Below, piece by piece: positions 6,964 to 54,320 of a stretch of 64,000 nucleotides of DNA; the first letter of the stretch is position 1; the number at the start of each line of letters is the position of its first letter. The notes under the pieces were generated by a model. It saw only the letters and a program-made list of their open reading frames with translations, ran no database searches and was not told the origin of the DNA. The DNA is from Alkalimarinus coralli (GTDB taxonomy: Bacteria > Pseudomonadota > Gammaproteobacteria > Pseudomonadales > Oleiphilaceae): positions 2,792,001-2,856,000 of the forward strand of contig NZ_CP096016.1 of the NCBI RefSeq assembly GCF_023650515.1, given 5' to 3'. The position numbers and the translations under genes were made by a program.

Positions 6964-8094
6964 ATGACCCCATACGCAGGAAAAAATCAGCGTGTATTCG
7001 CCTGCATAGCATTTACCCTGATCAGTACCGCCAGTCAAGCTGAACTAAAGCCATTGGAAGAAAATGACCTTCGCTCAATTACAGGTCAGTCTGCAATACA
7101 ATATTCAGCCACCGACATCAGTTACGACCTCGATCACCTGGTAGGTGTTGAGTTTAGCAAGAAAGAAGGCATTGGCTTTAATCGTACAGAAAAACGCTCA
7201 GTCTCTGAACATGTCGATGCGACCGTTCACCGCCTGCAAATAAACGGTGACGGAGAGTTTCATGCATTTGCGGAAGAACTAACCCTCGGCGACTACGGCG
7301 GCACGAACAACTCAATTTACAAAGACGACAATGGCCAGGGAGTACCCGATATCGCACTACGCAATTTTGGCTTTGGGGAGTCGGCTGAGAAACCTTTCTA
7401 TATTGAAGATCCCTATATTGAAATACAGCAGCAACACCACGCCGATGGTAGCAAATCATTTAGAGGGTTCCGTATTGGCTTTGGTAAAGCGGAAGGACAC
7501 ACGCCTGTTTCAATTGACTCCATTTCAGGTTACATCCCGACATTAAGTGTGCTGGCAGAAACCGGCGGCCTGATAAGAGCCCAGGTATATGGCAGTGGAA
7601 CAAAAGACAGCTTTGGCAATATTATCGGAGATACGCCAGACGGAACCGGTAACTATGCACAAACACCCGCCCCCGGTGTGCGCCAATGTAACGGCATCTG
7701 GTGCGCTAACACCCCGAATAACGTTCAACTAACAGGCAATACGGCCCTAGGGCAAAGCAAGGGCGGTAAAGAGATAAACCTTGAACACATAGAAAGCCTG
7801 GACTTTCATAATGTTGAAAACTTTTACATATCACTCACTCAGGGTGGAGGTAATTCATTCGTCAATAGTGATGGATCGGTAAACGGAGCTAAGTGGTCAC
7901 AGCATTTGAGTGGCATTATTCCTTCGAACAGACCTGACCTTCCGGGTTGGAATCTGGCGATCCCTTTCAATGATCCTCAAAATACAACGGCAGGTTATGT
8001 AGAAGCCCATACAGATATTGCAGCCTCTCTTAGCCAGATACTATTTGCCACTGGGGACAATAATCCACGCCAACAATACCAGCCTATATTTTAA
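6964..8094 (+). CDS. Secreted DUF6160-like protein, paralogue 1
   Basis: A Sec signal peptide (cleavage about ASQA|ELKP, residue 26) is followed at once by PLEENDLRSITGQSA, a motif shared with the next two genes (consensus ELxxVxGQ). The rest (376 residues in total) is rich in Gly, Asn, Asp and short beta-like stretches, with no catalytic signature. The N-terminal pattern resembles DUF6160 proteins of Pseudomonas and the FilA proteins of the Acinetobacter putative fil pilus system, but this is recalled family knowledge, not a search result. The ribosome binding site is strong (ggaggc). Likely periplasmic or exported; function unknown. Confidence 0.75.
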   Translation: MTPYAGKNQRVFACIAFTLISTASQAELKPLEENDLRSITGQSAIQYSATDISYDLDHLVGVEFSKKEGIGFNRTEKRSVSEHVDATVHRLQINGDGEFHAFAEELTLGDYGGTNNSIYKDDNGQGVPDIALRNFGFGESAEKPFYIEDPYIEIQQQHHADGSKSFRGFRIGFGKAEGHTPVSIDSISGYIPTLSVLAETGGLIRAQVYGSGTKDSFGNIIGDTPDGTGNYAQTPAPGVRQCNGIWCANTPNNVQLTGNTALGQSKGGKEINLEHIESLDFHNVENFYISLTQGGGNSFVNSDGSVNGAKWSQHLSGIIPSNRPDLPGWNLAIPFNDPQNTTAGYVEAHTDIAASLSQILFATGDNNPRQQYQPIF

Positions 8095-8117
8095 GTCGGC
8101 ATAAGAGGTTGTAGACG

Positions 8118-9140
8118 ATGAAATCATCAATAACTAAAACACTCATTATGCTCGCAGGCACTATTCCGTGGCTGCCTGCAAATGCACTGGAAGCGCTATC
8201 AGATGAGCAGTTAAGCAGTGTGAATGGCCAGGGAAAGTTCAACTTCGCCTTTGAGAATATAAAGTTTAACGGCGAAGCGATAGACGGAGTGGCAGAAGCG
8301 GGCAGCTTCAACACGGTTGCAGCCGATGGCTCCAGCCTTAACCGAAAGAACTTCCAGTTTTCAGCAGACAGCATCGGCACCCGCTCATCGCCACTGAGCA
8401 CTAGCACCGTGCGCCTGGATCCATCTGTTAACAGCATTTCTGACGGAGATGTCACAAAGAACGGCACTTCGCTTGCCGAGCAGGACTTTTTAAGAATAGA
8501 CCTGCCTGATCGTTCTGGCTGGAACAATGTTGACCTGCAATATGATGCCGTTTATGGAAATACGCCAGACCCAGACCCTGGCAATCCAAATATTGCCGCT
8601 GGCGGCACACCTTCAGATCACCTGAATTTTGGCCGAGTCACCATTGATAACATTGCCATCACCGGCAGTCTGGATATCAGTGGTATTCCTCAAGGCTATA
8701 AGATTGAAAGTGTGTTGCTGGATGATGGCAGTCGAGGGGCCAGCTCGCGCGAAGGTTTCTTGCTTAACGTTAACATCGATGAACTCTCTATCGATCAGTG
8801 GTTATTTGAAACGGAGCAACCCGATGGGGTATTTGATGCAGATAGAGATATGGTTCTTAAGGATTTCAGCCTTACAAACCTGCACTTGAAGTCCGCAACA
8901 ATTGAGACAACATCAAAAGGTTATCGTATCGCCTATTCCGACCCGCAACCCTTTACTAAAGCGTCCGGTTTAATCATTAAGTCTGGTGGCGGCTTTCCTG
9001 ACGTTGAACACGCCGCTTATGATGCCAGCCGTCCCAAAGCCAATATAACGCTAACAACCCAAATGCCGCACGGCCAAATGAGCGAATCCCGAATACATGG
9101 GGTTACGCTGGATCATTTGGTATTCAACGTACGGAATTAA
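8118..9140 (+). CDS. Secreted DUF6160-like protein, paralogue 2
   Basis: This 340-residue protein has a Sec signal peptide ending about PANA (residue 23), then EALSDEQLSSVNGQGK, the same ELxxVxGQ element as its neighbours. The body is beta-rich and Asp/Ser/Gly-rich, with repeated short I.N.A..G.L.I segments (for example VTIDNIAITGSLDI). It starts 23 bases after gene 1 stops, with an agagg ribosome binding site, so it belongs to the same operon. The C-terminal part ends in alternating hydrophobic residues (LDHLVFNVRN), as in many outer-surface beta proteins. No function can be assigned. Confidence 0.72.
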   Translation: MKSSITKTLIMLAGTIPWLPANALEALSDEQLSSVNGQGKFNFAFENIKFNGEAIDGVAEAGSFNTVAADGSSLNRKNFQFSADSIGTRSSPLSTSTVRLDPSVNSISDGDVTKNGTSLAEQDFLRIDLPDRSGWNNVDLQYDAVYGNTPDPDPGNPNIAAGGTPSDHLNFGRVTIDNIAITGSLDISGIPQGYKIESVLLDDGSRGASSREGFLLNVNIDELSIDQWLFETEQPDGVFDADRDMVLKDFSLTNLHLKSATIETTSKGYRIAYSDPQPFTKASGLIIKSGGGFPDVEHAAYDASRPKANITLTTQMPHGQMSESRIHGVTLDHLVFNVRN

Positions 9141-9173
9141 AGAGTCATCGGGCTAAACGGTTTAAAGGAAAAT

Positions 9174-9704
9174 ATGATGAAGATAAAACGCTTACTATAC
9201 GCCGTCAGCGGCCTTGCCATAGGCAGTATTTCGCTAATATCCAATGCAGAAATGGTTGGGTTAGAGGAAAACGAGCTTTCAAAGGTGTCGGGGCAGTCGG
9301 GACTATCTATTGAAATTCCCCACCTTAGAGTCAATGCCCATGGCAGTGGCAGTATTGATAACCCCAACACCCCCGCCGATGAAAGTGACGGTCGACGAAC
9401 CAAAGGTTATAAGCTTGACTATGTTACTCGTGATCATAATGGAGGTAATGAGGCGCACTACTTCGTTGATGAAGTCTCTTTGGCCGTTGATATTACCGGC
9501 GCAATCACACTGGATATTGAAGGAGACGGCACACTGGTGATAGGTCTCCCTGAGCGTATCAATTACGTAGGCGACGGCTACAGTGCAAAAGGCATTTATC
9601 TGAACGACACAGGCAATACTGCCAGCGGCGGGCACATGCTGAACGAAATTAGCATCCAGGGAAATTATAATACTGGCGGAACCATCTCAATATGGGGTGA
9701 ATAA
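9174..9704 (+). CDS. Secreted DUF6160-like protein, paralogue 3
   Basis: This is the shortest of the three (176 residues): signal peptide to about ISNA (residue 25), then LEENELSKVSGQSGLSIEI, the best match to the shared motif and the closest to typical DUF6160 openings. The remaining region is beta-rich. It starts 33 bases after gene 2 with an aaagga site and is convergent with moeB. Three different-length paralogues in a row suggest co-expressed subunits of one extracytoplasmic structure; that is inference. Confidence 0.75.
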   Translation: MMKIKRLLYAVSGLAIGSISLISNAEMVGLEENELSKVSGQSGLSIEIPHLRVNAHGSGSIDNPNTPADESDGRRTKGYKLDYVTRDHNGGNEAHYFVDEVSLAVDITGAITLDIEGDGTLVIGLPERINYVGDGYSAKGIYLNDTGNTASGGHMLNEISIQGNYNTGGTISIWGE

Positions 9705-42539: not shown

Positions 42540-43421
42540 ATGCGATGGCCTCACTTCATGATTATTCAATGTCTGCTGATCTTTGTGATTGGTGCCGTTG
42601 CTTATGCCCACAAAGATAAACTGATTGTTCTTAAAAAGCCTCCCGAGTCTTTAGCTCAATGGTATAAACCGGAAAACAAGCGACAAGTATGGCTACATAC
42701 CATGTTTAGTTTACGCCGGGAGATGCAGGCAGTACGGTATTATATTGAAAAAAACCAAAGCGATATTGCTAGCACCAAGGGCAATACGGATAGCCTGGAG
42801 AAGTGGTCCAATAAACTCAGTGAGCATTACCTGAAAATAGCCAAAATGGTTCCAGAGTGGTCCAGAAAACTTGAGATTGGCGCGATCAACCAGCTACAGG
42901 CAGACATAAAAAACCAGCAGTATGGCCAAGCATTAAATCACCTGGAAACAATTCGCCAAAGCTGCGACTCGTGTCATTCGGACTATCGAACAGTCACTGC
43001 ATTGAAGTTCCGGGCACCCGACTTTTCATCTATCAATATATCCCCGTCCGTTTCATTCAACACCCATATGGCAGAGCTAACCGAACAGGTTAATCAGGTT
43101 AAGATTTTTTCTGAAGATGGCATGAAAGAACCTGCGCTAGCGTCATTCTCAGCACTTAAAAATGGCTTAACTGTGATGGGTGAAGTGTGCTCAGACTGTC
43201 ACAAAAAAGACACCAAGGTGTATCCGGGAGATGCGATCACCCAGACCATGAATAGTCTTGAAGAGAGTTTGAAAAGCGGCACAACAAAAGACCAGGGCAG
43301 ATACTTGGGCACACTGGCAGTACAGGCATGTGCTCGCTGTCATGGCACCCATAGACTAACCTACGATATGAAGAGCGGCATTTCAAATCAGCCAACATGG
43401 CTTGAGCTGATAAAACACTAA
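42540..43421 (+). CDS. Triheme c-type cytochrome
   Basis: 293 residues. The N-terminus is a signal peptide or anchor (FMIIQCLLIFVIGAVAYA). Three CxxCH heme sites are present: CDSCH (about residue 144), CSDCH (about 220) and CARCH (about 264). The first two each close a helical segment of about 100 residues, as in cytochrome c' type four-helix bundles, so this may be two cytochrome c'-like domains with an extra heme near the end. Role in electron transfer is certain in outline, but partner and acceptor are not. Confidence 0.85.
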   Translation: MRWPHFMIIQCLLIFVIGAVAYAHKDKLIVLKKPPESLAQWYKPENKRQVWLHTMFSLRREMQAVRYYIEKNQSDIASTKGNTDSLEKWSNKLSEHYLKIAKMVPEWSRKLEIGAINQLQADIKNQQYGQALNHLETIRQSCDSCHSDYRTVTALKFRAPDFSSINISPSVSFNTHMAELTEQVNQVKIFSEDGMKEPALASFSALKNGLTVMGEVCSDCHKKDTKVYPGDAITQTMNSLEESLKSGTTKDQGRYLGTLAVQACARCHGTHRLTYDMKSGISNQPTWLELIKH

Positions 43422-44599: not shown

Positions 44600-46786
44600 C
44601 TATTGATCCAGCTTGTTTTTATCGTTCAAAGACTTTATTTGTCGGTACGACTTAACCAATGAACTCACAGACAAGGGTTTATAAAACAAGTAACCTTGTA
44701 CAAAGTGAACCTGACGGCAGCGAAGAAAATCAAACTGCTCGGCAGTCTCAACCCCTTCCGCGATCACATCAATATTCAGCTCATGAGCCAGGTTAATAAC
44801 CGACGAGGTGATAGCCTGGCTTTCTCGATCCACTTGAAGCCCTTGTATAAACGAACGGTCAATTTTTAAATAATCTACTGGCAACTGACGCAAATAATTA
44901 AGTGACGAAAACCCAGTTCCAAAGTCATCAAGCGCAATCGTAACGCCGAGTTTTCTAATATTCTCTATTAGCGAAATAACCGTATTCAAGTCTTCAAGAA
45001 AACAACTTTCAGTTATCTCCAACTCCAACAATGGAGCAGGAAAATTAGTTTCAGTCAGCGTCTTCGTGAGTATTTTATAAAAGTCAGGGTGCTTTAATTG
45101 TTTAGCTGAGATATTTACCGCGATGCAGGCCCTCTTATTCTCGCCCAATAGATCGACACCTATTCTGCATGCCTGTTGCAACACCCAGGAGCCAATAGGG
45201 ATAATAAGCCCGGAGTCCTCAGCAATCGCAATAAAGTCTGCCGGATGCAGCAAACCATGAACCGGGTGCTGCCAGCGAATCAACGCTTCTACCCGAACCT
45301 CCTCTTCTCCCGATATGCTGATTTGAGGCTGAAGATGAAGCACAAACTCTTGCCTGTCTACCGCATCAATCAGCTCCCTTTCCCGCTGTAACTTATGGGG
45401 AATATTGCACTCCATAGACGGGTCATAAAAACGCGACTGACCTTTACCCAACTCTTTGGCGGCGTACATTGCCAAGTCGGCCTGCCTGACCAACAGGGTG
45501 GGGTCAAACTGCTTTTCGAATTGAGTGGTAATACCAATACTGGCAGACATCAAAATCGACTGCCCATTTACAAATAGCGGCTCATGGATTGATGCTAACA
45601 ATCGATCAGCAACAATACTTAGCTGGTTGACATCTTCGATATAGCGCACCAGCACAACAAATTCGTCCCCCCCCAAATGCGCAACAAAGTCATGATGCTT
45701 AACACAGCGAGAGATTCTCGACGCGATTGCGCTCAGTAAAAAGTCACCTGCCTGATGCCCTAAACTATCATTTACACGTTTAAAGTAATCCAGATCGATA
45801 TACATCAGCCCTATGCCGTATTCACCGGCCAGGCCAGCCTCCGCTACATTATTAATGTGCCGCCAAAAGTGCCTTCGGTTGGGAAGATGAGTAGTAAAAT
45901 CGTAGCCGCCATCCCCTCCTCCTGCGGCGTCCATATTTCGAAACTCACTGATATCATTGGCTACACAAACATAATGGGAAACACTGCCATCATCATCTTT
46001 AATAGGGCCTATTGTAAGGCGAACCCAACGATCAAGCCCGCCTGAACTCTTGCTTTCAAATTCACCCTCCCAATACGAGCCATTCTCGATGACCCGTTTC
46101 AGCTCAGGGTACTGTTTCTCAGCCTCACTGATCCACTGATCCAACAGCGATACGCGTTTCAGATCCGCCTCATCGCTTATTTGATAAATGTCTATCAGCG
46201 CTTTGTTAATGACTTCAATCTGACCACCGGGCTGACATATCATCACTGCAGAGGTATGACCCTTGACACTTTCAGCCACACTTTGGATCGAGGTATCCTG
46301 CAATATATGTCGCTCTATTTCGCTCTGTAGCTCGCGCTGACGTTGGTTGAGTTCTGATGCCAGCTTTTCATTTAACAAAGCGATATCACGCGCTTTTTGA
46401 TACACACCATGACGTTCAGAAAATGAGGCCGTGTGGTTTTCGATGAGCAAAACAGCCTGACCATCAAGCTGACATGCCCTGGCTTCTAATTGATGTTCAT
46501 AGCCAAACGGGTCTGTTTCAGTCCATATTCCTGAGCGAACGGACTCTGCATCTGTAGTCTCCCATACCGTGTCTGCATCAATTAAAAAGTTCTCTATGAA
46601 CGGGAATGCAGCACACAAAGACGCACTGTCAATCTCTGCGCTGTTCTTCGGTAAATCGCAGGCAAGTAACTCTAAAAGGCTTCTGAACCATATGCATTGG
46701 TTGTTGATTAGCTGAAAAAAACCTTCTTCCTTTCTAACCAGCACCACAACGCCAAGTTCTTCAACGACTCCATCCAAAATACTCAT
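44600..46786 (-). CDS. PAS-GGDEF-EAL c-di-GMP enzyme
   Basis: 728 residues, no membrane segment: an N-terminal sensor-like region (about 1-130), a coiled coil (about 135-165), a PAS domain with PAC tail (about 165-285), GGDEF (about 300-460, intact AHLGGDEFVVL) and EAL (about 475-720, intact VEALIRW, DDFGTGFSSLNYL and ETAEQ). Both catalytic signatures are complete, so it could make and degrade c-di-GMP. Its ATG overlaps the GTPase stop by 4 bases (ATGA), making it a likely output of the GTPase operon. Confidence 0.93.
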   Translation of the reverse strand: MSILDGVVEELGVVVLVRKEEGFFQLINNQCIWFRSLLELLACDLPKNSAEIDSASLCAAFPFIENFLIDADTVWETTDAESVRSGIWTETDPFGYEHQLEARACQLDGQAVLLIENHTASFSERHGVYQKARDIALLNEKLASELNQRQRELQSEIERHILQDTSIQSVAESVKGHTSAVMICQPGGQIEVINKALIDIYQISDEADLKRVSLLDQWISEAEKQYPELKRVIENGSYWEGEFESKSSGGLDRWVRLTIGPIKDDDGSVSHYVCVANDISEFRNMDAAGGGDGGYDFTTHLPNRRHFWRHINNVAEAGLAGEYGIGLMYIDLDYFKRVNDSLGHQAGDFLLSAIASRISRCVKHHDFVAHLGGDEFVVLVRYIEDVNQLSIVADRLLASIHEPLFVNGQSILMSASIGITTQFEKQFDPTLLVRQADLAMYAAKELGKGQSRFYDPSMECNIPHKLQRERELIDAVDRQEFVLHLQPQISISGEEEVRVEALIRWQHPVHGLLHPADFIAIAEDSGLIIPIGSWVLQQACRIGVDLLGENKRACIAVNISAKQLKHPDFYKILTKTLTETNFPAPLLELEITESCFLEDLNTVISLIENIRKLGVTIALDDFGTGFSSLNYLRQLPVDYLKIDRSFIQGLQVDRESQAITSSVINLAHELNIDVIAEGVETAEQFDFLRCRQVHFVQGYLFYKPLSVSSLVKSYRQIKSLNDKNKLDQ

Positions 46787-47301
46787 GTCGATTCGGGCAC
46801 TCCTGACCCAAGCCCCATTTTTTCAACGATCGTATCAAATGCCAATTCAACATTGTGGCCGGTTTTGGCACTTGTCTTAATGAGAGTAATCCCAAGCTTT
46901 TCTATTCCCTTCATATCCGAGTCACCTAACTTCCACTCATAGGTCAGGTCACTCTTGTTTAATAGCCCTACAACAGGTACACCGGGTAACTGCTCAGCAA
47001 GCAACTTCGATAGCTCTTCCGCCATATCAACGCTTGCTGGCCGCGTCCCATCCAGTACCAACAAAACCCCTGAAGCCCCCCTAAGATAGCTGGGTTTAAG
47101 CTCGGTAAACACATCAACCCCTTCGATATCCCAAATCATCAGCTGTACTTGGCCATCGTATGCATCCACTGTTTTTTTAGAGATTTTCACGCCGATCGTG
47201 GTAAGGTATGTATCGCTAAAAATACTTTCAACATAGCGACGTACCAAGCTCGTTTTGCCAACGGCAAACGGGCCTACCATGCAAACTTTTTTAGCGATCA
47301 T
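46783..47301 (-). CDS. Ras-like small GTPase (Rab/Arf-type, prokaryotic)
   Basis: 172 residues from ATG 47301. All five G motifs are present: G1 GPFAVGKTS, G2 Thr in YLTTIGV, G3 WDIEG (WDTAG in eukaryotic Rab), G4 NKSD and G5 TSAK. No lipid-modification Cys is at the end. Bacterial Ras-like GTPases such as MglA set cell polarity with roadblock-type partners. It overlaps both neighbours by 4 bases (ATGA), so it is made together with the OmpA-domain protein upstream and the c-di-GMP enzyme downstream. Confidence 0.93.
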   Translation of the reverse strand: MIAKKVCMVGPFAVGKTSLVRRYVESIFSDTYLTTIGVKISKKTVDAYDGQVQLMIWDIEGVDVFTELKPSYLRGASGVLLVLDGTRPASVDMAEELSKLLAEQLPGVPVVGLLNKSDLTYEWKLGDSDMKGIEKLGITLIKTSAKTGHNVELAFDTIVEKMGLGSGVPEST

Positions 47302-49256
47302 TTTACCCACCACGAATCTCCTGGGTTAACGTCCTTTTCATCACCTTTTCCGGTAGGCGTGTCAGCACTCTGAGCCTGATTCGGTTGCCTTGTTTTATCT
47401 GAATACAGAACCTGAAGCGTTACTCTTCGCTGAGCCTGATCCGACACCACATCCAAATCAATATTGCCTACCCCCCAGGCAACAATAATATCAGACGACA
47501 CAGCATTATCAGTCAGTATAGTCCTTATACTGTCTGCTCGCTGTTGGCTCACGGTATTATTTCCAAACGAAGATCCCGAGCGATCCGCAAAGCCCATAAC
47601 GATAATCTGCAAATCGCGGATCCTCTCTGCGGCAGCAATGGTTTCCATCTCGTTGATGGCTGCAACAACCCCGGGTACTTTCAACACTTCATCTTCAGAT
47701 AACCTGGACTCATTCGGTTCAAAATAGAACACTGTGCTCTGCACCTTCTCGACCAGTTGCTTGAATTTTTCCAGTTCTGTTTCCGTTTCAAGAACAGTAA
47801 GACCACTGAAGTCAGCCTCTTCATAATAGCTATTTAACACCTCGCTATTCATCAGCCGCTGACGTGTTGCTTCACTGACGTCCCCCTTAATACTCAGAGA
47901 CTCACCCTGCGCAATAATGCTGACCTCCTCTCCTTCGGCAAGCAGGGAGTTTGTCATTGCCTCAACATCGATCACTGGTTTTTCCGACACCTTCTCAACC
48001 TGCTTTACCTCGGGTTTAGGCAATGGCCCCATGTGGACAACGGTCGCATCAATCAACACGGCTACACCTTTACCTTCACCTACACCTTCACCTTCACCTT
48101 CACCTTCACCTTTTAGTAGATTGTCGCGAAGAGTCGATGCAGGTCGTGACTCTGGGCTACGTAGCGCCTTGACATAGAGTTGATCGTTTTCACGCTTGCT
48201 CGATAGCACAGTATATCCCGGCTCGCGGCTAATCAGTTCCTCTGCTTTTTGGTATCGACTTTGGATACGCCAGCTTTCAATACTGTTTGCAACAAGGTAA
48301 GCGGCGACGCACAGCAATAATATCAGTGCCAACCAAGGCTTTTTCTTTTCTTTCTGTTCAACCTTCTGGGTTAGCAGGCATTCTGACAGGATCGGAGTGG
48401 TCTCATCAAATTCCGCGCGATCCCCCTCAAAGTGAACCAATTGATGGTCAAATTGCGCATGAACCGTCTCAATTGTGGTATTGGCTTTCAGGGCTAACTC
48501 ATCAGAGGCCGAACCTCTGACGGCAACGGCCAGAACAGCATGAGGCCCTACCAAAAGGTGGAGTTCCAGGTCTCCGAATCGAATGCGTTCAAGTGTTTCT
48601 TTTCCCGCAGAGAACGAGTCAGAAACAAAGTCACTGATTGCGGTCAGCATGCTTGATACCAGCTCAGGGTCTTGTGTTTCCACCTCAGATGCGGTGACAG
48701 AGTTTAACAATAGACCGGTTTCCCGATGTACCAGCAAAACTTGCTCAACACGGTATTCAACCGTCTGCAGCAAAACATATTGCGCATATGGCATGCCTGC
48801 GCGCCAGGCACGCACTCGCCAATTAAGCGAACCAAGGGTTAAGCTCTGTTCGAGCAGGGTATTCAGTGACTGGACCATTTCAGCCAGCGCTGAGGCAACC
48901 GCTTTACGAATTGCAGGCCCTATAATAGGAAATAAAATATTGGTAATACGGGTAGGGTTTTGTTCGATCGATTGCTCAATTGCTTTGTCGACAACAGGCG
49001 ACAAAGCCTCACCCAAATCTGTTTGGGTGCTGAGCCTAACCGCTTTCGGTAGCACCTCTGAAACGCGTTCAGCATCTTCTTCTTTGGTGATATAGCGATT
49101 CAATGCAGAAGAGTACTCCTCCCCCAATAACAACCGCCGCAATTTCAGGTAGTTGTTATCTGGCTCCGTTTCTTCCTCCGAGCTCTCAGCGTAACCTTTG
49201 TCTATTTCGCCAATAGACGTTTTGCCTTGAGATTCTGACATATCAGCTGGGTTCAC
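47298..49256 (-). CDS. Transmembrane OmpA-domain protein with possible roadblock-like region
   Basis: 652 residues from GTG 49256 (ATG 49241 is an alternative). Cytoplasmic part: a LRRLLLGEE helix (about 37-46), helical stretches, and a region about 165-285 (VEQVLLVHRETGLLLNSVTA, then LELHLLVGPHAVLAVAVRG) that resembles roadblock/LC7 or longin folds. One membrane segment (about 306-326). Then a low-complexity GEGEGEGEGVGEGKG stretch and a C-terminal OmpA peptidoglycan-binding domain (about 515-635; GFADRSG and SQQRADSI). The design links a cytoplasmic GTPase to the cell wall. The roadblock call is inference. Confidence 0.8.
   Translation of the reverse strand: MNPADMSESQGKTSIGEIDKGYAESSEEETEPDNNYLKLRRLLLGEEYSSALNRYITKEEDAERVSEVLPKAVRLSTQTDLGEALSPVVDKAIEQSIEQNPTRITNILFPIIGPAIRKAVASALAEMVQSLNTLLEQSLTLGSLNWRVRAWRAGMPYAQYVLLQTVEYRVEQVLLVHRETGLLLNSVTASEVETQDPELVSSMLTAISDFVSDSFSAGKETLERIRFGDLELHLLVGPHAVLAVAVRGSASDELALKANTTIETVHAQFDHQLVHFEGDRAEFDETTPILSECLLTQKVEQKEKKKPWLALILLLCVAAYLVANSIESWRIQSRYQKAEELISREPGYTVLSSKRENDQLYVKALRSPESRPASTLRDNLLKGEGEGEGEGVGEGKGVAVLIDATVVHMGPLPKPEVKQVEKVSEKPVIDVEAMTNSLLAEGEEVSIIAQGESLSIKGDVSEATRQRLMNSEVLNSYYEEADFSGLTVLETETELEKFKQLVEKVQSTVFYFEPNESRLSEDEVLKVPGVVAAINEMETIAAAERIRDLQIIVMGFADRSGSSFGNNTVSQQRADSIRTILTDNAVSSDIIVAWGVGNIDLDVVSDQAQRRVTLQVLYSDKTRQPNQAQSADTPTGKGDEKDVNPGDSWWVK
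48066..48113. repeat. Hexanucleotide repeat inside the OmpA-domain gene
   Basis: Eight 6-bp units of accttY type on the plus strand (accttt, accttc, acctac, then accttc four times, accttt) encode the Gly-Glu repeat after the membrane segment. Unit gain or loss would keep the frame. Confidence 0.85.
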
Positions 49257-49797
49257 CTTCCAGGCTATTCGCCATGTTTACCAGCAGCTCTGCAAGCGTC
49301 TTTCTATCAGTTTTTCTGTCAGACAAGTCTCCCTTAGCACTGCCCAGCTTTTCAAGCACGTCTTTGTATTTTCCTTCCATATCTGCAGCAAGCTTTTCTG
49401 CTTCAGAGAAAAGTTGCGCCTCGAGCGAATCCTGCGCGGCAACAGTCTGCTTTTGGAATGCGTCCAGGTCTTGCTGCAACGTCGAAATTTCGCCCTCTAA
49501 TAAGGCATCTCGATTTTGCGCTTCTTCATTTAACTTGGTGACATGCGCCGACAAATCATCCAACCTGTCAGTTAAATGAGTTTTCAATTCTTTAATTGAG
49601 CGAGTAATTTGCCGATCCATTTCTGCAAACTGCTTTTCATTATGGTCACTCAAGTTTTCAATGGTTTGTCGAACTTCTGCGACCTGCTGACCAAACAGTA
49701 GCTGTTGAATTTCCCTGAGTTGGGCTTGCGGATCCATGATATCTGGAGACACGTCAGCACTTTTTTTATTGCTTTTTTTTGTAGTAGAAGCACTCAT
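49243..49797 (-). CDS. Coiled-coil protein, first gene of the GTPase operon
   Basis: 184 residues: a Lys/Ser-rich start, then LREIQQLLFGQQVAEVRQTI, a long coiled coil (about 50-165) and a short end. The LREIQQLLFG helix resembles LRRLLLGEE at the start of the next protein, hinting at a shared docking element. It overlaps the OmpA-domain gene by 14 bases. No signal peptide or membrane segment; cytoplasmic scaffold is the likely role. Confidence 0.72.
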   Translation of the reverse strand: MSASTTKKSNKKSADVSPDIMDPQAQLREIQQLLFGQQVAEVRQTIENLSDHNEKQFAEMDRQITRSIKELKTHLTDRLDDLSAHVTKLNEEAQNRDALLEGEISTLQQDLDAFQKQTVAAQDSLEAQLFSEAEKLAADMEGKYKDVLEKLGSAKGDLSDRKTDRKTLAELLVNMANSLEGEPS

Positions 49798-50098: not shown

Positions 50099-52717
50099 CT
50101 AGTCAGCGTTGAGAATTCGCGCGATAGACCTGATATTGCTGTGTGACTCTTTTTCAAGCCAGCTCAGAAAGGCCTCTTCAGGCATTGGCCGCCCGATATG
50201 ATAACCTTGAGCCACATCACATCCCAGCTTTTGGAGCTGCAGCATGGTTTCCTGATCTTCTATGCCTTCCGCCACAACCGTTAGCCCCAGGGTATGAGCC
50301 AGATTAACCGTCATTTCAACAATCTTCTGGTTCTGTGGGTTTTGCAACATATCAGAGACAAAAGAGCGGTCTATTTTTAACTCATCAACGGGTAGTTGGT
50401 TTAGGTATGAGAGCGATGAGTAACCGGTACCAAAGTCATCAATGCTGAGTTTAATACCCAACGCACTGAGGCTATTAAGAACGCTCAGCGCTTTATCCGG
50501 GTTATCCATCATCGTTGTTTCTGTCATCTCAAACACGATTCTTTCAGGCGCGACACCATATTCAAGCAGCTGATCCAATGTATTTTTGACAAAGTTAATT
50601 TCAACTATATTTTTGGCTGAAATATTCACCGAGAGCTGAATGTTATGCCCCAGCCCCTGAAACTTTTTGTCATATTGCAGCACTTTTTCAACCACCCATG
50701 CAGTCAACGGCCTGATCAAGCCAGACTGCTCAGCGAGAGGAATAAACTCATCAGGCCTGACAAACCCGTGCACATCATGACTCCAGCGAATAAGTGCCTC
50801 AGCCCCCACCACTTTTGATGTCGATAAGTCGATCTGTGGCTGAAGGAACAGTGCCAGTTTGTCGTTCTCTATGGCCTTTGACAGGTCGCCCATCAGAGAT
50901 AGTCGACGGGTGCTGTAATAGTTCTGATCCGGTGAGTAAGTGGTTATCTTTTGTGATGCCTTTTTTGAATTTTCAAGCGCGATAGTCGCGTGTTGCGCTA
51001 AAGCATCCAGATCCTGCCCATGAATAGGGAACAACGCAATACCTGCAATCGCATCAATATCAATAAACATGCCCTCATGCTCGATAGGCTTTTTCATAAC
51101 GCTCAAAAGTTTTTCAGCGACATAGTTCGGGGCCTGCGTGTCTGAACTCATTTCAACCAGTACGCCAAAGCTAACCCCATCAAGAACCGATAGAAAATGG
51201 AAATAGTCATCCGTTCTATCGACAGGTAAAACATGATCTACCCGCCCCGCCTCATGCGCCAAACGGTCAGAGGCTCTGATTAGTAGAAGATCAGCATTAC
51301 TTTTACCCAGCGTTTTGTTTATTTCGTGGAAGCGGTTAAAGTGAATGACAACCAACCCAAACGATTTAACGCCACCACCGGGTTCGGTCTTTAAATCTTC
51401 GATGCGCTTATACAGTGACGTACTATTGGGCAGAGAGGTGAGTGAGTCATAACTTGCACGTTCCAGCAGTCGCTTCTCCGCCTGTTGCCACTTTAATATT
51501 GTCTGATGCTTTGACTCCAACGCTTCATATTTCAACATTCTGTCTACTTTAATTCGCTGTGCCAGCCCTAAAGAGAGCAGAATAACCTCTGCTGCTGAGC
51601 CAAACTGCATCGCGCTTTCGGTAAAAAAGTTAGTTGGAACCATTCCGAATACGCTCGACAAGTAGATTAAAATGCCACTCAGAAAAAAGGACCATGCGAT
51701 TAAAAAGTAAGGGGCTGTCGGGCTACCTCGCTTCAGCGTTTTTAAGCCAGTAGCAATCAACACAAGCGAAAAGAGTGCGGCAATAGAGCCAGACATCTTT
51801 GGAAAACTGACATCGACAAAAACAACCCCAATAAACACTGCGGCCGCCGATATAAATGTTAGGCCAACAATGAACTTATCAAACGTTGGGGTGAGTTTTC
51901 TGGTTCCTAAAAAGGAGCGGGAAAACTGCAGCGCGCCAAAAACGGCGAATACGCTAAAAATTAGCAGCGCGTGCTGGTTTAAACTCTCGTTACCGGGCCA
52001 GAATAGTTGAAACCCCAGCCCATTTAGGAACAATACCGTTCCCAGTAACCCAACCAGATACATCACATAAAAAATGTATGTAGGGTCTTTCACTGAAACA
52101 TAGAGAAACAGGTTATACAGTGTTAGCGCCAACAAGATCCCGCAAAATATGCCCCAGCCATAAGAGCTTAATGTTTCCTCTTCGAAATAAACCTGTGCAG
52201 GCCATAAACTCAAAGGAATTTGTATGGAGCTATCTGACGCAACCTTTAACCATATCTCATATTCGGTATTACCGATGTTCTTTAGCGGGTAAGCAAAGTT
52301 CCGGTAGTGAAGAGGCCGGGAACTAAAAGGCTGGCTCGTGCCAGTTTTTATATGCTTAACCCCTTCTGCTGTTCGAATATAAAAATCAATATGCTCGAGT
52401 GGAGCGTAGTCTAGCGAGACAACCCAGTTCTCAACGTCTGCAATGGCGTCGGAAAACACGAACGACGCTCTAACCCAGTACACCGAATCACTAAAACCAA
52501 AGTTCAGCGTCCCCTCTGCGTTTTCTTTCATCTGTCCTTGGCGGTGCAGTTCAGTCAACTCATCAAATGTTAACGTGCCTGTCGCGTCTTCGTAATAGGA
52601 AAGATGAACATTGAGGGGTACTCGCTGGTCGGCAGTTGAAACAACAAAGGCGTACGCAGGAAATGAAACAAAACAGATAACCCATCCTAAGCACAGGTTA
52701 CGCAACAATACATTCAT
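50099..52717 (-). CDS. 7TMR-DISM sensor with degenerate GGDEF and intact EAL
   Basis: 872 residues: signal peptide (to about 24), a periplasmic 7TMR-DISMED2 domain (about 30-170), seven membrane spans (about 185-400), a short coiled coil, GGDEF (about 430-590) and EAL (about 605-855). The GGDEF motif is replaced by DGVSFGVL, so it should not make c-di-GMP. EAL is intact (AEALIRW, DDFGTGYSSLSYL, KIDRSFV), so the protein is probably a phosphodiesterase controlled by an external ligand. Separate from the GTPase operon by 300 bp but on the same strand. Confidence 0.92.
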   Translation of the reverse strand: MNVLLRNLCLGWVICFVSFPAYAFVVSTADQRVPLNVHLSYYEDATGTLTFDELTELHRQGQMKENAEGTLNFGFSDSVYWVRASFVFSDAIADVENWVVSLDYAPLEHIDFYIRTAEGVKHIKTGTSQPFSSRPLHYRNFAYPLKNIGNTEYEIWLKVASDSSIQIPLSLWPAQVYFEEETLSSYGWGIFCGILLALTLYNLFLYVSVKDPTYIFYVMYLVGLLGTVLFLNGLGFQLFWPGNESLNQHALLIFSVFAVFGALQFSRSFLGTRKLTPTFDKFIVGLTFISAAAVFIGVVFVDVSFPKMSGSIAALFSLVLIATGLKTLKRGSPTAPYFLIAWSFFLSGILIYLSSVFGMVPTNFFTESAMQFGSAAEVILLSLGLAQRIKVDRMLKYEALESKHQTILKWQQAEKRLLERASYDSLTSLPNSTSLYKRIEDLKTEPGGGVKSFGLVVIHFNRFHEINKTLGKSNADLLLIRASDRLAHEAGRVDHVLPVDRTDDYFHFLSVLDGVSFGVLVEMSSDTQAPNYVAEKLLSVMKKPIEHEGMFIDIDAIAGIALFPIHGQDLDALAQHATIALENSKKASQKITTYSPDQNYYSTRRLSLMGDLSKAIENDKLALFLQPQIDLSTSKVVGAEALIRWSHDVHGFVRPDEFIPLAEQSGLIRPLTAWVVEKVLQYDKKFQGLGHNIQLSVNISAKNIVEINFVKNTLDQLLEYGVAPERIVFEMTETTMMDNPDKALSVLNSLSALGIKLSIDDFGTGYSSLSYLNQLPVDELKIDRSFVSDMLQNPQNQKIVEMTVNLAHTLGLTVVAEGIEDQETMLQLQKLGCDVAQGYHIGRPMPEEAFLSWLEKESHSNIRSIARILNAD

Positions 52718-52922: not shown

Positions 52923-54320
52923 ATGTATCCCATGAATAGTCTAAGGAAAGAAGAAAGAAAAGAAGAGCGGCATAACATTTATTTGCCATTGGTGCTGGAG
53001 TCTAACGGGTCTCGTATCGTGGCACGCTCCCGAAACCTGTCTACCGGCGGCGCAAGCATCTCTTTGGTTGACCCGGTTAATACTGAAGATATTGATGTAC
53101 AGGGCTCGGTAACCATCAGAACGCGAACTGGCAATATAAAGACCTCGTATGAGATCACCTATCGGAAAGAAAATACTATAGGTATTCGTTTTTCTGATAT
53201 TTCAACGCCAAACATTGAAGCAATCAACCACTCTTTAAATGACAAGCCAATAGGTGATCCTGTTGTGCTGGCCTCCAATGAAGATGAAAAACCTGAAGCG
53301 CTTAGAACACCTTGGGGCAATTTGAAGCGCCGCAGCTGGATTTTACTGAGAATAACTTCGATTCTCACCGCCAATTTATTCTGGCCAATTCTTAAAAAGG
53401 TCGTAAACCCAGAAGTTGTTTTCGCCGTATATGGAACCCGAGGTGATCAACGGGCCTATGTTCCTGACTGGTTTCGCCGCTTTTTCCCTCCCATCGCGGT
53501 TGCCGCTTACATAAAAGACAGATCCTCGCGGGGCGTGATGGTCTCTTCAGTCTATTCAGAAGAAGAGCTCGCATCTGACTCTGATAAAGTTCGAAAATAT
53601 ATTTCAGATTTGCAACGAGAGTTTCCAAACGTTAAACGTTTTGCACTCGTCGGAAGGCTCCCGGGCTTCAGCATGAAGGCAGGAATAGACATTGTTCCGC
53701 CACTTGTTGATGGCTCCTATGGTACCCGTTTTGCTATGAACGAGTCTGCCAATCAAATTGCACACAAACTCGGCGTGAATAGCAAAACTCAATCAATTGC
53801 GATACTCGGAGGGGCAGGAAGAATTGGAGCCAGCCTGATTGAGGATTTATGCCACAATTTTCAGTCAGTAATCGCAATAGACCCCCGTTATACGGAAGAA
53901 AAAACCACCATTATTAACGGGTCAAAAGTACTCTACACCAAACGAGGCGAGCGGCTGCGTGAAACCAAATTAATACTGGTGCTGACCGCAAGGGGTAACG
54001 ATATACTGCCGATGATCAACCATATGACACCAGGCACCATTGTGGCAGACGATACCCACCCATGCATTAAGCGCCCTGCCCGGGCACAGCTTAAAAAACA
54101 GGGTGTTGAACTATGGAAAACCGTCGTCACCAGTGATGATTACAATATGTATCCAAGAATGCCTAATTTCCATAACAACAACATACCGGGCTGCTTGCTT
54201 GAAGCGCTGGTATTAAACGCAACAGGAGACCAGGCACTCAGCTCTCCCCAGACATTCTTTGACGAAGCGAAGAAGTGCGGCTATAAGACACTATTAATTC
54301 GCCACCCGGATGACTCTTAA
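52923..54320 (+). CDS. PilZ domain fused to an NAD(P)-binding Rossmann protein
   Basis: 465 residues. N-terminal PilZ (about 8-115) has the c-di-GMP-binding RxxxR (R12-R16 in RKEER) and NLSTGG (N38, S40, G43). A hydrophobic stretch (about 143-155) follows. The C-terminal 300 residues include GGAGRIGASLIED (about 295), a dinucleotide-binding loop, and later IVADDTHPCIKRPA and PGCLLEALVL. The latter part resembles shikimate dehydrogenase or acyl-ACP reductase folds. Function unknown; a c-di-GMP-controlled oxidoreductase is the simplest reading. It is divergent from the 7TM GGDEF-EAL gene. Confidence 0.78.
   Translation: MYPMNSLRKEERKEERHNIYLPLVLESNGSRIVARSRNLSTGGASISLVDPVNTEDIDVQGSVTIRTRTGNIKTSYEITYRKENTIGIRFSDISTPNIEAINHSLNDKPIGDPVVLASNEDEKPEALRTPWGNLKRRSWILLRITSILTANLFWPILKKVVNPEVVFAVYGTRGDQRAYVPDWFRRFFPPIAVAAYIKDRSSRGVMVSSVYSEEELASDSDKVRKYISDLQREFPNVKRFALVGRLPGFSMKAGIDIVPPLVDGSYGTRFAMNESANQIAHKLGVNSKTQSIAILGGAGRIGASLIEDLCHNFQSVIAIDPRYTEEKTTIINGSKVLYTKRGERLRETKLILVLTARGNDILPMINHMTPGTIVADDTHPCIKRPARAQLKKQGVELWKTVVTSDDYNMYPRMPNFHNNNIPGCLLEALVLNATGDQALSSPQTFFDEAKKCGYKTLLIRHPDDS

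Follow-up and report, generated by a model that had tools for sequence, protein, structure and literature searches.

The operon described here lies within a 64,000-nucleotide stretch of Alkalimarinus coralli (NCBI RefSeq assembly GCF_023650515.1, contig NZ_CP096016.1, positions 2,792,001 to 2,856,000 of the forward strand), referred to below as the window, in a genome that consists of one contig of 4.83 Mb. The list of open reading frames (ORFs) confirms four consecutive minus-strand ORFs at 44600-49797, which code for a coiled-coil protein, a membrane protein with an OmpA domain, a Rab-like small GTPase and an output enzyme of cyclic di-GMP (c-di-GMP) signalling. It is close to certain that this locus is a Group 1 Rup signalling operon as described by Wuichet and Sogaard-Andersen (2014, PMC4316618), and the cytoplasmic domain of its membrane protein is likely, on the evidence of a predicted structure, to adopt a longin fold. 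The features are listed below with their positions in the window; TM stands for transmembrane and aa for amino acids.

49243..49797, minus strand: coiled-coil protein, first gene, 184 aa (ORF call and Pfam scan)
49690..49719, minus strand: LREIQQLLFG helix motif of the coiled-coil protein, residues 27-36 (pattern test)
47298..49256, minus strand: longin-TM-OmpA protein (longin fold predicted), 652 aa from GTG, with an ATG possible at residue 6
49122..49142, minus strand: LRRLLLG motif of the longin-TM-OmpA protein, residues 39-45, in common with the coiled-coil protein
48366..48755, minus strand: predicted longin-fold domain, residues 168-297, model residues 139-268 (AlphaFold2 and structure comparison)
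48279..48335, minus strand: predicted membrane span, residues 308-326 (hydrophobicity)
47430..47726, minus strand: OmpA domain of the peptidoglycan-binding type, residues 511-609 (Pfam, 5.1e-10)
46783..47313, minus strand: Group 1 Rup-type small GTPase, 176 aa from GTG 47313 or 172 aa from ATG 47301
47116..47133, minus strand: G3 motif WDIEGV of the GTPase, Asp kept, position of Ras Gln61 occupied by Val (alignment of Rups)
44600..46786, minus strand: output enzyme with PAS-like N domain, PAS, GGDEF and EAL, 728 aa
46292..46786, minus strand: predicted PAS-like N domain and long helix, residues 1-165 (structure model, structure comparison, profile scan)
46397..46399, minus strand: codon of Gln130, a near-invariant Gln on the helix after the PAS-like core (58/60 rows)
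45440..45904, minus strand: GGDEF domain, residues 295-449, motif intact, no RxxD at the usual distance
44675..45379, minus strand: EAL domain, residues 470-704, motif intact

The original prediction, made from the sequence of this DNA, had described four minus-strand genes overlapping by 14, 4 and 4 bases. All four genes are where it placed them, while two of the three overlaps hang on the choice of start codon. The coiled-coil and OmpA genes overlap by 14 bases if the latter starts at GTG 49256, and the in-frame ATG at residue 6 abolishes this overlap; the OmpA and GTPase genes overlap by 4 bases from ATG 47301 and by 16 bases from GTG 47313, just upstream of which sits an AGGAG. Only the 4-base overlap between the GTPase and output genes is free of such a choice. 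Scans for promoters and terminators were no richer than shuffled sequences (8 vs 7.8 and 5 vs 4.9, respectively).

The GTPase possesses all five G motifs, as had been noted before (G1 GPFAVGKT, G2 TTIGV, G3 WDIEG, G4 NKSD, G5 SAK), in a single Ras domain (Pfam Ras, 8.4e-29). In an alignment of 80 Rups, from which 4 of 84 loci without a Rup at E < 1e-20 were left out, the G3 Asp is kept in 80/80, whereas the position of Ras Gln61 holds a Gln in only 2 and is most often Glu (38) or Val (11). All 60 PDB matches listed, of 822, are Rab or Sec4 proteins, and the only match to the GTPase in its own genome is the GTPase itself. Judged by its sequence, the protein is a Rab-like GTPase devoid of the catalytic Gln. 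A tree of the 80 Rups with one roadblock-linked GTPase was dropped, as that protein was the single usable outgroup, and was uninformative because of one very long branch.

In the accessible parts of PMC4316618, Group 1 Rup systems comprise a coiled-coil protein, a protein made of an unassigned domain, a TM segment and OmpA, the Rup GTPase, and a c-di-GMP or kinase output; this four-part neighbourhood and the idea of a Gln supplied in trans are already found there. The window's operon has all of these: a single-domain GTPase within 150-240 aa (172-176 aa, one Ras domain), a G3 motif without catalytic Gln (WDIEGV), coiled-coil and DUF-TM-OmpA neighbours (DUF, domain of unknown function), and an output whose N region carries a near-invariant Gln, Gln130, which presumably corresponds to the invariant Gln of the output N region in figure 4A of that paper. 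The portions of PMC4316618 available to us leave the DUF unassigned and give c-di-GMP fusions and histidine kinases as typical outputs, HD outputs going unnamed in its section 18; here structure prediction makes the DUF a longin domain and the output N region a PAS-like domain with a helix behind it, and outputs of the HD-domain and sigma-54 types occur too.

The original prediction had instead framed the locus after MglA and MglB, the GTPase and roadblock protein that control polarity. This framing fails on two counts, the G3 motif and a genome in which Robl_LC7 has no match. According to the text of PMC4316618 at hand, the MglA G3 motif is without the usual Asp, which the Rups keep in every case, and no Robl_LC7 (MglB) match was found in the window's genome at E <= 0.001 by a search that was positive in 3/14 control genomes; membership in the MglA/MglB group was rejected on these grounds. 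Both kinds of module couple a Ras-like GTPase to a domain of the roadblock/longin superfamily; in the window's operon, however, this domain is by its predicted fold nearer to longins and sits inside an OmpA membrane protein.

The longin assignment concerns the 652-aa membrane protein. The earlier proposal of one membrane span and an OmpA domain holds: a hydrophobic span follows the longin-type domain in 67/79 relatives, an OmpA match at E <= 0.01 occurs in 72/80 aligned membrane proteins, the window's included, and the OmpA domain carries the GxAD..G and VSxxRA motifs. An AlphaFold2 model built from 64 aligned proteins of the window and loci (mean pLDDT, the predicted local distance difference test, 73.2) shows at model residues 137-262 the order strand, strand, helix, strands, helix, helix. 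This order matches that of longins, beta-beta-alpha-beta-beta-beta-alpha-alpha. Longin domains handle Rab GTPases in human cells. Compared with roadblock domains, they have an extra C-terminal helix instead of an N-terminal one, as stated in the parts of PMC10933270 available. In a comparison by VIA-align, the best of the matches listed was Sec22b (Z 13.8, root-mean-square deviation (rmsd) 2.6, 124 residues aligned), followed by VAMP7 (13.1), Ykt6 (12.8), and then AP subunits, TRAPP, a Lokiarchaeal longin (11.0) and Mon1-Ccz1, with MglB structures below the longins at Z 9.7 and 9.6. All 50 matches listed belong to longin- or roadblock-type proteins or to complexes containing them; which chains of the complexes are the longin or roadblock ones is our assumption. 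Foldseek gave 12 matches under 0.001, the best (E 1.2e-5) being a chain of an AP sigma-subunit entry. The roadblock/longin-like region once proposed for residues 165-285 is thus borne out as a fold of this type by structure prediction, and residues 168-297 are likely a longin domain as judged from the model.

The downstream protein is a complete c-di-GMP enzyme, in agreement with the original prediction, with PAS, GGDEF and EAL domains. Pfam matches begin at its second domain, save for a sub-threshold DUF2521 at residues 144-183. The model of residues 1-165 (pLDDT 91.7) shows a PAS-like domain and, behind it, a helix spanning residues 119-164. Nearly all matches listed are PAS-family entries, LOV, PYP and phytochrome PAS included, some of these identities being presumed, with middling Z values of 6.7-8.9 against PAS entries and 6 chains at Z >= 8; the top matches reach Z 8.9 (rmsd 7.3, 143 aligned) and Z 8.0 (rmsd 3.3, 113 aligned). 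Foldseek gave two matches under 0.001, the better with E 1.8e-4 to a LOV-PAS protein. Residues 1-118 are therefore likely to form a PAS fold, as far as a model can tell. Gln130 is a Gln in 58 of 60 output rows, and the exceptions, L121 and L147, both come from loci without rup. It lies on the long helix behind the PAS-like core, 11 residues in, at a place where PAS domains pass signals on. While this N domain stays, the effector part varies: 61 outputs scanned yielded 26 GGDEF, 26 EAL, 17 HD_5 (which we take to be of the HD-GYP type), 17 HATPase_c and one sigma-54 activator domain. Steering of local c-di-GMP by the window's operon is plausible, but its relatives have outputs of several types.

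For the first gene, Pfam gave coiled-coil-type matches only, all under curated cut-offs. The LRxxxxLLxG helix earlier noticed in the first two proteins is real and conserved: the pattern [LIVM][RKQ]x[LIVMF][LIVMF]xG is present in 78/82 coiled-coil and 68/83 longin-type proteins, compared with 33/727 other ORFs of the same loci and with shuffled means of 1.5/82 and 10.0/83, respectively, although some matches in longin proteins fall outside the N-terminus (e.g., L128). This plain pattern test was used because a profile of the N-terminal motif of the longin protein reached 0.01 for only one coiled-coil ORF; at E <= 1 it found 19 coiled-coil ORFs and one other ORF. The helix is common to both proteins across phyla and may be the element through which they assemble.

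The order of these genes recurs in genomes of many phyla, as the original prediction had suggested should be checked. A Rup GTPase was found in 8/58 relatives, the window's own genome counted, and a first survey found the order kept in 6/7 matches outside that genome. The longin-type domain was detected in 31/369 genomes of the class and in 30/200 of a phylum sample, three positives being common to both; named carriers belong to Gammaproteobacteria, Cyanobacteria, Gemmatimonadota, Planctomycetota, Acidobacteria, Verrucomicrobia, Bacteroidota and others, and no relatives of the 652-aa protein were found in viral contigs. The named loci are the best 80 of 205 stretches by similarity, with near relatives kept unthinned; L017, L019, L020 and L021 were dropped, being taken by their length for the same contigs as L081, L083, L087 and L091. 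Neighbourhoods were counted over 79 loci, L155 having no longin ORF. The output alignment, A7, is without three of 63 hits (L103 8699-9115, L134 5280-5768, L141 6065-7105), A8 is without three short hits and L095 (a second V. penaeicida genome), and A9 holds 101 chosen sequences, not all.

A coiled-coil gene stands directly upstream of the longin gene in 77/79 loci and rup directly downstream in 71/79. The remaining eight are L105, L124 and L137, with rup on the other strand, L121, L130 and L147, without rup in the locus, and L100 and L129, which we read as ORF-start artefacts; the long ORFs of the latter two were considered as fusions and rejected, as they overlap the longin gene in another frame. 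No natural fusion of the GTPase with the longin protein or the output was seen among the loci. An output with the N domain follows rup within 1.5 kb in 56/79 loci. Across the 369 genomes of the class, the output N-domain profile matched 13 places in 12 genomes, one of the places being the window's; these 12 genomes all belong to the 31 that have the longin-type domain, and rup is adjacent in 13/13.

Several arrangements were noticed by eye beside these counts. The outputs of L115, L116, L138, L142 and L144-L146 seem to bear a tandem pair of N domains that differ slightly in type and each end in a helix containing a Q. In L023, a stand-alone 131-aa protein resembling the output N domain follows rup (7922-8317), and the longin protein of this genome (438 aa) aligns without an OmpA part. 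In L098 (Gemmatimonadota), the gene after rup (8740-9582), in which no output N domain was detected, looks like a PP2C-type phosphatase, a candidate further output type. A similar-looking gene is seen in L099, L118 and L140, where no N domain was detected near rup. In L170 and L171, from the genomes of L124 and L137 (Deltaproteobacteria/Desulfobacterales metagenome-assembled genomes), rup is divergent from the coiled-coil gene and is followed by a protein looking like a PAS plus sigma-54 activator. Finally, in L164 and L165, from the genomes of L147 and L121, rup lies outside the operon between response-regulator-like and kinase-like genes, and the output retained in the operon has Lys in place of Gln130. 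Loss of the Gln where rup is lost was tried as a clean test and set aside: L121 and L147 fit, yet rup remains elsewhere beside a kinase-like gene.

Taken together, we propose, with an even chance of being right, that a longin platform anchored in the wall loads the Rab-like GTPase, which in turn switches a c-di-GMP enzyme gated by PAS. Their shared LRxLLxG helix would bring the coiled-coil and longin proteins together in a scaffold tethered to the cell wall. The longin domain, probably as a pair, would dock Rup and control its nucleotide state, as longin/roadblock platforms do for Rab and MglA. Rup-GTP would then bind the output protein at its PAS-like domain, and Gln130 of the output would help or complete GTP hydrolysis, so that binding and switching off would be coupled. 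The c-di-GMP enzyme, or elsewhere an HD-domain enzyme, a histidine kinase or a sigma-54 activator, would in this way be altered by the state of the envelope. How the events follow one another, and which way control runs, is our inference. That Group 1 Rup operons at large are a widespread bacterial counterpart of Rab-longin switching, in which a longin domain held at the cell wall loads the GTPase, the PAS domain gives the missing Gln in trans and the effector is itself the GTPase-activating protein (GAP), is a bolder claim to which we assign somewhat less than an even chance. If it holds, bacteria have the longin-Rab pairing within one operon.

A number of observations weigh against this proposal. 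Model residues 161-200 are weak (pLDDT 57-69). An hhalign comparison of the domain with 16 roadblock rows was not significant (probability 1.8, E 0.027), and its E values against the output domain (0.054) and Rup (0.36) were close to the roadblock value. The best match of a PDB profile search was a roadblock protein at E 0.56; Pfam scans of single proteins gave Intu_longin_3 0.018, Sybindin 0.059, Robl_LC7 0.074 and Fuz_longin_1 0.13, unrelated Pfam families outscored the longin and roadblock ones at 0.0023, and the window's own longin-fold domain had no Pfam match. Since the sequence link is not significant, homology to longins rests on fold and context. The longin domain could act as a guanine nucleotide exchange factor or as a GAP. 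No output N domain was found within 1.5 kb of rup in 23/79 loci, some of whose contigs end there, and the outputs of L121 and L147 have no rup in the locus. The figure of 13/13 is not fully independent because 58/60 rows of the profile come from domains beside rup, and the profile includes the window and, to judge by identical stretches (L197 with L116, L198 with L160), at least two other scanned genomes. Lying on a signalling-type helix, Gln130 may have its function in the PAS domain and not in GTP hydrolysis.

This last point opens onto a different division of labour, in which the longin domain would be the GAP, with the PAS-like domain serving as effector only and Gln130 as a structural residue of the signalling helix. 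The position of the residue would agree with it, as would the finding, in the parts of PMC6785124 available, that MglB, of related fold, is a GAP for MglA. We nevertheless consider such swapped roles unlikely, for Gln130 is near-perfectly kept while the GTPase is without a Gln of its own, and it is lost only in two outputs of 60, both without rup in the locus; these being close relatives, they represent one event at most. More improbable is that the four genes jointly serve envelope homeostasis, the GTPase exerting no control over the output and the neighbourhood stemming from co-transcription alone. The output gene does follow the longin gene without rup in L121 and L147, but the constant company of rup and the output N domain in the 369-genome scan, with the reservation already made about the profile, speaks against this idea, although the effector part varies. 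As for a polarity switch of the MglA/MglB type that steers local c-di-GMP for motility or attachment, a Ras-like GTPase does stand beside a roadblock/longin-type domain and a c-di-GMP enzyme, and MglB is among the structural matches; against it stand the G3 Asp, a predicted fold nearer to longins, a genome without a Robl_LC7 match, and the kinases and sigma-54 activator among relatives' outputs, and nothing in the analysis bears on polarity. We regard this possibility as very remote; of the earlier interpretation, the longin/roadblock-type region and the conservation of the operon stand, and the MglA/MglB framing falls.

Compared with the eukaryotic and Asgard longin/roadblock platforms that act on Rab and Rag (TRAPP, Mon1-Ccz1, Ragulator), the Rup operon shares a predicted longin fold next to a Rab-like GTPase and an anchoring in the membrane, but it is bacterial, contained in a single operon, probably tethered to the cell wall and directed to a second-messenger or kinase output, and no significant likeness in sequence was found. 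Actinobacterial conservons (Cvn) are likewise four-gene cassettes with a small GTPase, a roadblock-type protein and a signalling enzyme, although their GTPase is of the MglA type and its partner is an MglB homologue. In conservons, the GTPase rather than the kinase has been posited as the output (PMC4316618, in the parts available).

The system itself is not new, having been published as Group 1 Rup; what is new relative to the accessible parts of PMC4316618 is the longin assignment, the PAS assignment and its close link to rup, the wider range of outputs and the conserved shared helix. Only the longin-Rup pairing is claimed among matters of longins, because a 2016 review, in the portion available, already lists "Longin/Roadblock" in bacteria as one class. 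In what was available of the literature on bacterial and prokaryotic longins and on longins with OmpA or c-di-GMP, no report was found that ties longins to Rup, and no experimental work on a Rup was found in the literature searched, which leaves out most subscription journals. A longin fold in the Rup partner would make it a concrete, testable regulator. Such a fold would tie the Rup systems of bacteria to the logic of Rab and longin considered in work on how eukaryotes arose, where the GTPase and longin genes of one Asgard archaeon are generally in separate operons (PMC10933270, in the parts available). The operon would also offer a route from the state of the cell wall to c-di-GMP via a GTPase.

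Other genes in the vicinity are worth recording. Some 300 bases before the operon starts, and in the same orientation, lies a gene for a 7TMR-DISM-GGDEF-EAL protein (50099-52717, minus strand), which also precedes the operon in the same-genus genome L017 and was not found in another such genome, L018. Divergent from it is a gene for a PilZ-domain protein (52923-54320, plus strand), another c-di-GMP link near the operon, whose long C-terminal part has no Pfam match. On the other side, a multi-haem cytochrome-like protein with several CXXCH motifs (42540-43421, plus strand) is kept near the operon in both L017 and L018.

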